This document shows positions 23,418 to 53,711 of a DNA stretch of 64,000 bases, piece after piece (position 1 is the first letter of the stretch; every line of letters starts with the position of its first letter). This DNA comes from Agelas oroides (taxonomy: Eukaryota; Porifera; Demospongiae; Agelasida; Agelasidae): assembly GCA_949130485.1 (NCBI GenBank), contig OX422194.1, positions 1,052,243 through 1,116,242 of the forward strand, written 5' to 3'. A program made the position numbers and the translations under genes. The notes beneath the pieces are model-generated. The model saw only the letters and a list, made by a program, of their open reading frames with translations, had not been told where the DNA came from and searched no databases.

Positions 23418-24300
23418 TTAAACATTGGTGTCGCTGCTGTTTTCACAGTTGTTATCCATCTCAGCACCTTTAAATTGCTCCTTTGTTGATAAGTCCTTCA
23501 CACATGTTTTGAGTTCTATTCCATCTTCCCTCCACAGCTGGGTGGGAGAAACACACTTCTCAGAATCATTACTCCTTTCCAGTACCTGTTCCTTCTCCTT
23601 TACTTCAACGTTCTTGTCTGTAGTTGCATCAACCTCTGGATGTTCCTTAATAGTCACTATCGATGGGTTCTCTATTATTGATTGATCTCCTGCAATTGTG
23701 AAGAGTGGGTCAGTATATTTCTCCTCCTTACTGTGGTCGTCAGTGCTTAACTTGTAGCCATTGGCATCGCTCTTGCTGGAAGTGACTAAAGTACGATTAG
23801 GGTAGGCAAAGTTGGTACTTGCTGTGCTTCTCTTCTTTAGGGTAGAATTGCCTCCAAAACCACTGCGCTTGGTTTGTGATGTATACAGTGACTTTGACTT
23901 ATAGCGACCACATGCACGAAAGAACAGCTCTAACCAAGACTCTCGAGCATCCTTGCTGAATACACAGAAGAAAAGGAAGATGAAGAAACCCTGGAAAGCA
24001 TTGAGGAGCACAAAGAGTGTTTGGAAGGCAGTGGAAGCTCTAGAGTCTCTGAGCCCAGTAGCGGTAAGTGCACCAAAGAGCCACGTCAGACCAAAGAGAA
24101 ACATGACACCTGCAATACTAATGAGCAGTTTGATGGCCGTTTTCTTGTTCATTTGCTCTTTGGTACGACCAAGTGTGTTTCGGGTGTGCTTGATGAGGAC
24201 CCTGATCACCATGACAAAGATGACAACATTGAAGAGCAGGATGACAAAGATGGGGCCCAGGAAAGTAGTAAAGAATACTGCAGTGTCAGAGATGAAGCAG
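23418..24300 (-). CDS. Calx-GPCR TM5-TM7 and cytoplasmic tail exon
   Basis: Phase 2 in, ends at a stop at 23418-23420. ECL2 CFISDTAVFF, TM5 FLGPIFVILLFNVVIFVMVI, TM6 LLISIAGVMFLFGLTWLFGA (the family B2 GLTWLFG motif) and TM7 FQTLFVLLNAFQGFFIFLFF with its FQG motif. The tail of about 165 residues is charged, with no domain I recognise. Confidence 0.85.

Positions 24301-53711: not shown

Follow-up and report, generated by a model that had tools for sequence, protein, structure and literature searches.

Adhesion GPCRs cleave themselves in the GAIN domain, and a tethered agonist, once exposed, activates the 7TM region. In ADGRV1 (VLGR1), Calx-beta repeats lie ahead of GAIN/GPS and 7TM. This receptor also has EPTP/EAR repeats and a LamG/pentraxin domain, and we know of no HRM before its GAIN. 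In the sponge Agelas oroides, a long series of minus-strand exons ends in a GPS and a 7TM region and carries Calx-beta repeats, an HRM and two arrays of Ig domains. Do these exons form one gene, and if so, how did two separate Ig arrays come to lie on either side of the Calx-beta repeats?

The locus lies in a 64,000-nucleotide stretch of contig OX422194.1 (GCA_949130485.1), here called the window. An earlier sequence-only reading proposed a single transcript in which the Ig arrays flank the Calx-beta array. Here we examine that proposal through domain searches, splice-site scores and comparison of the copies within the window. At a probability of roughly 0.6, the sequence points to one adhesion GPCR gene, running from 53711 to 23418 on the minus strand, that would be a lineage-specific chimera formed by module capture.

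Gene model and domain composition

The model begins with an ATG at 53711 and its stop codon ends at 23418 (Table 1). Its 41 exons give a CDS of 9,345 nt, which is divisible by three and encodes 3,114 aa with no internal stop. GT...AG is present at the three junctions singled out by the sequence-only reading (45387/43708, 35099/33814 and 28565/28148), and the exons lie where it had put them. The domain order is signal peptide, five Ig exons, eight Calx-beta repeats, eight Ig exons, HRM, GAIN/GPS and 7TM, with an ectodomain of about 2,650 residues. Some ends of the GAIN/GPS exons were picked by eye.

Table 1. Positions of the receptor model, the inserted segment and the neighbouring genes in the window
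Feature	Position	Strand	Remarks
Signal-peptide exon	53654..53711	-	19 residues, phase-1 donor
First Ig array	45387..52077	-	5 exons: 52077-51757, 51099-50770, 50534-50235, 49917-49570, 45653-45387
Calx-beta array	35099..43708	-	8 repeats, two exons each; PF03160
Left breakpoint	34988..35025	-	At CA/TG run 34988-35021
Inserted Ig cassette, 6.5 kb	28504..34987	-	Match to Ig genes ends in intron after last Ig exon
Second Ig array	28565..33814	-	8 exons, 2,574 nt, 0 stops, 16/16 splice dinucleotides intact
Relic of ninth Calx-beta second exon	28361..28492	-	83% to 36754-36898
HRM exon	27973..28148	-	Pfam HRM; weak acceptor
GAIN and GPS exons	25871..27901	-	Pfam GPS, ADGRL3 match
7TM exons and cytoplasmic tail	23418..25211	-	7tm_2; tail end ...SSDTNV
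Gene A	64.0 to about 57.6 kb	-	Exons matching gene C (Ig, FN3, TM-like); head outside window
Gene C	about 22.5-12 kb	-	Ig exons after a signal-peptide exon; FN3 (Pfam 2.9e-23); hydrophobic TM-like stretch by eye
Gene D	11.45 kb and below	-	Ig gene running out of window

Pfam was run on four protein pieces that together cover the whole model, and every domain class of the proposal was recovered. Ig_3 matches four stretches of the five-exon first array (1.3e-45) and seven of the eight-exon second array (2.7e-95). Calx-beta matches eight stretches (8.5e-115), GPS once (6.4e-14) and 7tm_2 (PF00002) at 5.5e-36. The HRM match (7.7e-6) is barely above its cut-off, with 26.7 bits against 26.2. A cysteine is absent from the third exon of the first Ig array.

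ADGRL3 aligns (7.8e-11) to residues 213-338 of the HRM-GAIN-GPS piece, a span that takes in the second half of GAIN and the GPS; the first half of GAIN has weaker matches only (ADGRG6, ADGRB3). The best solved chain for the 7TM region is ADGRG2 (2.6e-44), with ADGRG6 and ADGRL3 also among the best. The autoproteolysis motif, CNCNHL/TNFAIL, is intact. With 7tm_2 and a GAIN bearing the GPS cleavage motif, the predicted receptor has the features of an adhesion GPCR (class B2). As had been proposed, there is one GPS-7TM end only: a narrow motif scan in six frames of the 64 kb gave a single GPS-like site, at 25909. A second match to the motif (plus strand, 11662) is unlike a GPS on inspection. The TNV at the end of the tail fits what we take to be a putative class I PDZ ligand.

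The receptor lies in a tandem Ig cluster

The window is a minus-strand tandem gene cluster whose copies are mostly 84-96% identical. It holds four intact Ig1-4 heads (at 52077, 33814, 21462 and 10414) and four signal-peptide exons, the one at 53711 having paralogues at 56322, 22461 and 11450. The site used as donor in these paralogues is non-GT at 53711, where the next phase-1 GT appears to have been adopted. In the first array, Ig1-4 have 84-92% DNA identity to the three other heads and Ig5 has 88% identity to 7184-6921. Gene C shares the signal-peptide exon and the Ig1-4 head with the receptor (exons 84-93% identical, same phase). It then runs into FN3 and a TM-like stretch, whereas the receptor continues to Calx-beta and 7TM.

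A paralogous signal-peptide exon precedes three of the four intact heads. The exception is the head at 33814, upstream of which blastn (E 1e-6) found no signal-peptide exon. The first array thus has the signal-peptide exon, Ig1-4 and phase-1 introns of the Ig family, and the second array shares Ig1-4 with the family, with no signal-peptide exon found.

Several other features of the cluster were recorded. A broken Ig1 copy (54428-54658, minus strand) has a CA run in place of its middle, and an intact-looking signal-peptide exon (56265-56322, minus strand) lies upstream of it; the two may be what is left of a further head in the interval from gene A to gene B. The segment 10786-13000, from the tail of gene C to the start of gene D, is duplicated at 55652-57834, from the tail of gene A to B (three blocks, 77-88% identity). 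A candidate cytoplasmic exon of gene A (57642-57839, minus strand) has no Pfam match and contains several tyrosines (HEYEEL, ADYELP), possibly signalling motifs. The gene D copy of the fifth cassette Ig (1320-1661, minus strand) shows no AG where the acceptor is projected, and the beginning of its domain seems to be partly lost. The Ig4-Ig5 intron (45654-49569) measures 3,916 bp in the receptor and 184 bp in gene D; it carries a minisatellite (19 bp x 30, 46044-46609), and none of the four ORFs scanned between 44.1 and 49.3 kb, three of them in this intron, gave a Pfam match. Rfam found nothing at gathering scores in the whole window. Within the Calx-beta array, repeats 1-3 (41564-43729) are 96-98% identical in their exons and 92-97% identical as blocks with introns, and a perfect (CA)98 run lies among them. 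They appear to be a recent triplication inside the receptor.

Exon phase does not separate one gene from several

The sequence-only reading argued for one gene from phase compatibility and a combined length divisible by three. This argument carries no weight. Each of the 29 Ig and Calx-beta exons has a length divisible by three and phase 1 on both sides. The Ig1-Ig5 exons of neighbouring heads have the same phase, with lengths divisible by three in all copies compared, and phase-1 exons also encode FN3 domains of genes A and C (in a scan restricted to phase 1). Because these exons are symmetric, any order of them stays in frame, and phase therefore cannot distinguish a single gene from several.

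The second Ig array interrupts a Calx-beta repeat

The breakpoints of the second array are stronger evidence than phase that it lies inside the receptor gene. On one side of the left breakpoint is the intron after Calx-beta repeat 8, which corresponds to the intron after repeat 6 (35025-35400 against 37244-37627, 94% identity). On the other side, from about 34987 down, the sequence matches intron 1 of gene C. In gene C this match reaches to about 22280, leaving some 140 bp up to the end of the signal-peptide exon (donor at 22416). At the opposite end of the cassette, similarity to gene C extends 61 nt into the intron after Ig8 before it is lost, while genes C and D remain alike beyond that point. 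The right breakpoint is between 28503 and 28492, resolved to 11 nt, and lies outside the listed tandem repeats.

Beyond the right breakpoint stands the relic of a ninth Calx-beta repeat. Its second exon has lost its start, contains a 13-bp deletion and is frameshifted, and the HRM follows at 28148. Judged by these identities, Calx-beta repeats 8 and 9 are a duplicate of repeats 6 and 7. The cassette occupies the place of the part of the ninth repeat equivalent to 37243-36899 (345 bp). With a Calx-beta intron on the left and a truncated Calx-beta exon on the right, the Calx-beta array and the HRM-GAIN-7TM exons would have been one gene before the insertion, and a transcript joining both must cross the Ig cassette. 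Of the claim that Ig arrays flank the Calx-beta repeats within a receptor, the part on the second array gains its main support here, since that array sits inside the Calx-beta/HRM/GAIN/7TM gene.

The relic was rejected as a used exon: besides the lost start and the deletion, inclusion through the AG at 28490 (score 4.0) leads to an early stop. The former intron 1 of the cassette contains a minisatellite (33907-34279; 42 bp x 8.9 copies, 96% matches) that is unexpanded in gene C.

The junction between the first Ig array and the Calx-beta repeats

The breakpoints back the junction 35099-33814, which is well supported by the sequence. The junction 45387-43708, from Ig5 to Calx-beta, would follow by exclusion only. 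No signal-peptide candidate was found in the gaps 45386-43709, 35098-33815 and 28564-28149 by a scan that recovered four of four known exons. This absence is mild evidence: the scan is weak, with 32 hits per 64 kb and about 1.7 expected in the three gaps, and its positives are mutually paralogous. Each of the three gaps likewise holds zero open phase-1 exons of at least 60 nt with splice scores of at least 4.5. Both scans were limited to phase-1 exons, and the splice scores were trained on the same gene model. Poly(A)-like hexamers occur at 45285 in the first gap and at 34957 and 34829 in the second, at about the background of 0.45 per kb or above.

The absence of a candidate start in the first gap bears on the possibility of two genes, a short Ig gene (53711-45387) followed by a separate Calx-beta/Ig/HRM/GAIN/7TM receptor starting between 45.4 and 43.7 kb. 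In its favour, the match between the first array and gene D breaks off where Ig5 ends (45381), and the hexamer at 45285 lies just beyond. Spacing downstream is also compact. The receptor stop is 956 bp from the next signal-peptide exon, so a gap of 1.3-1.7 kb need not be an intron. However, the gap lacks both a signal-peptide-like exon with a phase-1 donor and an open phase-1 exon with good splice sites, the sole ORF scanned in it (plus strand, 44117-44590) has no Pfam match, and the short Ig gene would be left without a membrane anchor. We regard two genes as unlikely.

Is the inserted cassette used?

A transcript could cross the cassette and still discard it. Splicing from 35099 straight to 28148 is in frame, with phase 1 on both sides, and would give an Ig/Calx-beta/HRM/GAIN/7TM receptor with the cassette as a dead passenger. 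The state of the cassette speaks against this. Its eight exons are all open, none of the 16 splice dinucleotides is lost, and its donors score 4.8-11.3. Pooled dN/dS over Ig1-4 between the cassette and the three other heads is 0.45, 0.46 and 0.54, similar to the values among the other heads (0.46, 0.50 and 0.56). Among the codon changes private to the cassette Ig1-4, 8 are synonymous and 11 non-synonymous, which is not significantly below the neutral expectation (P = 0.07) and no proof of constraint. The same test gives P = 0.0006 for the first array, 0.01 for gene C and 0.2 for gene D. Together the dN/dS and private codon counts are compatible with use of the cassette, short of proof, and the skipping of all eight exons appears improbable.

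The junction between the cassette and the HRM is uneven in strength. Its donor at 28565, GTAAGT, scores 11.3, the highest of 40. The HRM acceptor at 28148 ranks last among the 40 (-0.4 when scored as part of the training set, -3.9 when left out) and is the first AG past a pyrimidine-rich stretch. An ATG at 28359 (MLLHSITCFIFTVLPFLEEF) runs open and unspliced into the HRM, so that a short receptor could be imagined to start within the HRM exon itself. This frame has a signal-peptide-like core and is the sole such case among the 41 exons, save one frame common to two Calx-beta exons, and the weak acceptor suits it. However, the stretch is the former intron after the Calx-beta relic, and a second hydrophobic run (LLAIVMQFLFFF) would enter the ectodomain. 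We consider such a start very improbable.

It is just as improbable that the assembly wrongly fused a Calx-beta receptor with an Ig gene. The left junction does fall at a CA/TG run, and such similar tandem copies are hard to assemble. But the finely resolved right junction is in no listed tandem repeat and cuts an exon that also bears the 13-bp deletion, and the two flanks carry both of the halves expected from a single duplicated block of Calx-beta sequence.

Relationship to known adhesion GPCRs

The sequence-only reading took Calx-beta repeats with a GPS-7TM to define ADGRV1-type receptors. The resemblance itself stands: as in ADGRV1, Calx-beta repeats are followed by GAIN/GPS and 7TM, and the linkage to the 7TM is backed by the relic beyond the cassette. 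The assignment to the type does not follow from it. Unlike ADGRV1, the receptor has eight repeats, an HRM and two Ig arrays, and Pfam, at E 0.01, detected neither EPTP nor LamG/pentraxin in any of the four pieces covering the model. Membership in ADGRV1, as predicted from these features, is thus not supported.

Among sponges, Ig and HRM are named as domains in a figure legend on Amphimedon adhesion GPCRs, of which at least 8 of 40 have an HRM (PMC4302439). These receptors share Ig and HRM with the one described here; the term Calx-beta occurs zero times in the main text of that paper. Calx-beta and HRM are both named among adhesion-GPCR domains in another study (eLife, PMC12716839), and the figure legend of a review names Calx-beta and Ig sets (PMC13197933). 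A sponge Calx-beta gene and sponge adhesion GPCRs are given separately in a further paper (PMC6208332). In amphioxus, adhesion GPCRs with an Ig I-set were reported and domain shuffling was suggested (PMC2246102). Those receptors likewise have lineage-specific ectodomain modules, but the modules are others, and 'Calx' occurs zero times in that main text.

The order Ig/Calx-beta/Ig/HRM was not found in the open-access literature searched, at the level of abstract openings and selected passages. At this scope, the literature agrees with the earlier remark that no adhesion GPCR with this domain order was known. The search also returned no paper on sponge aggregation factors with Calx-beta and Wreath. 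A pattern search for relatives gave 41 matches in genome contigs and 8 and 141 in viral contigs, with none confirmed, an absence that is expected for an animal sequence. The domain combination is real and unusual, and probably lineage-specific.

A model of origin and its implications

In the proposed model of a single captured-module receptor, the starting state would be a Calx-beta/HRM/GAIN/7TM receptor inside the tandem Ig-gene cluster. A fragment of 6.5 kb from a neighbouring Ig gene, with its ends in intron 1 and in the intron that follows the final Ig exon, would have taken the place of some 345 bp in the ninth Calx-beta repeat. Because the fragment kept its splice sites and its exons are symmetric (phase 1-1), eight Ig domains would have been added in frame. 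At the N-terminus, the common head of the cluster (signal peptide and five Ig) would have been joined to the first Calx-beta repeat. In the resulting protein the Ig domains may bind ligand or matrix and the Calx-beta repeats may form an extended rod. From the intact motif and the general behavior of adhesion GPCRs, the GAIN would be predicted to self-cleave at HL/T. Loss or movement of the ectodomain would then expose the TNFAIL tethered agonist and activate the 7TM.

A broader and rather doubtful extension of this model is that the cluster acts as a supply of exchangeable phase-1 cassettes, with Ig heads moving between Ig/FN3 receptors and the GPCR. The two same-direction heads of the receptor are 18 kb apart and 85-90% alike, so that alternative splicing, and likewise unequal recombination, could remove or duplicate the rod of Calx-beta repeats. 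A self/non-self-type Ig repertoire might in this way be wired to G-protein signalling.

The insertion left an unusually clear record of the origin of the receptor. The locus keeps a readable scar in which the donor family, the breakpoints and the destroyed Calx-beta exon are all preserved, and it offers a direct test, at a single place in the genome, of how an ectodomain can grow when modules are inserted among exons of symmetric phase. Should it be transcribed as one gene, the receptor would be an adhesion GPCR with an ectodomain order absent from the literature searched, and a tandem Ig receptor cluster would be linked to GPCR output.
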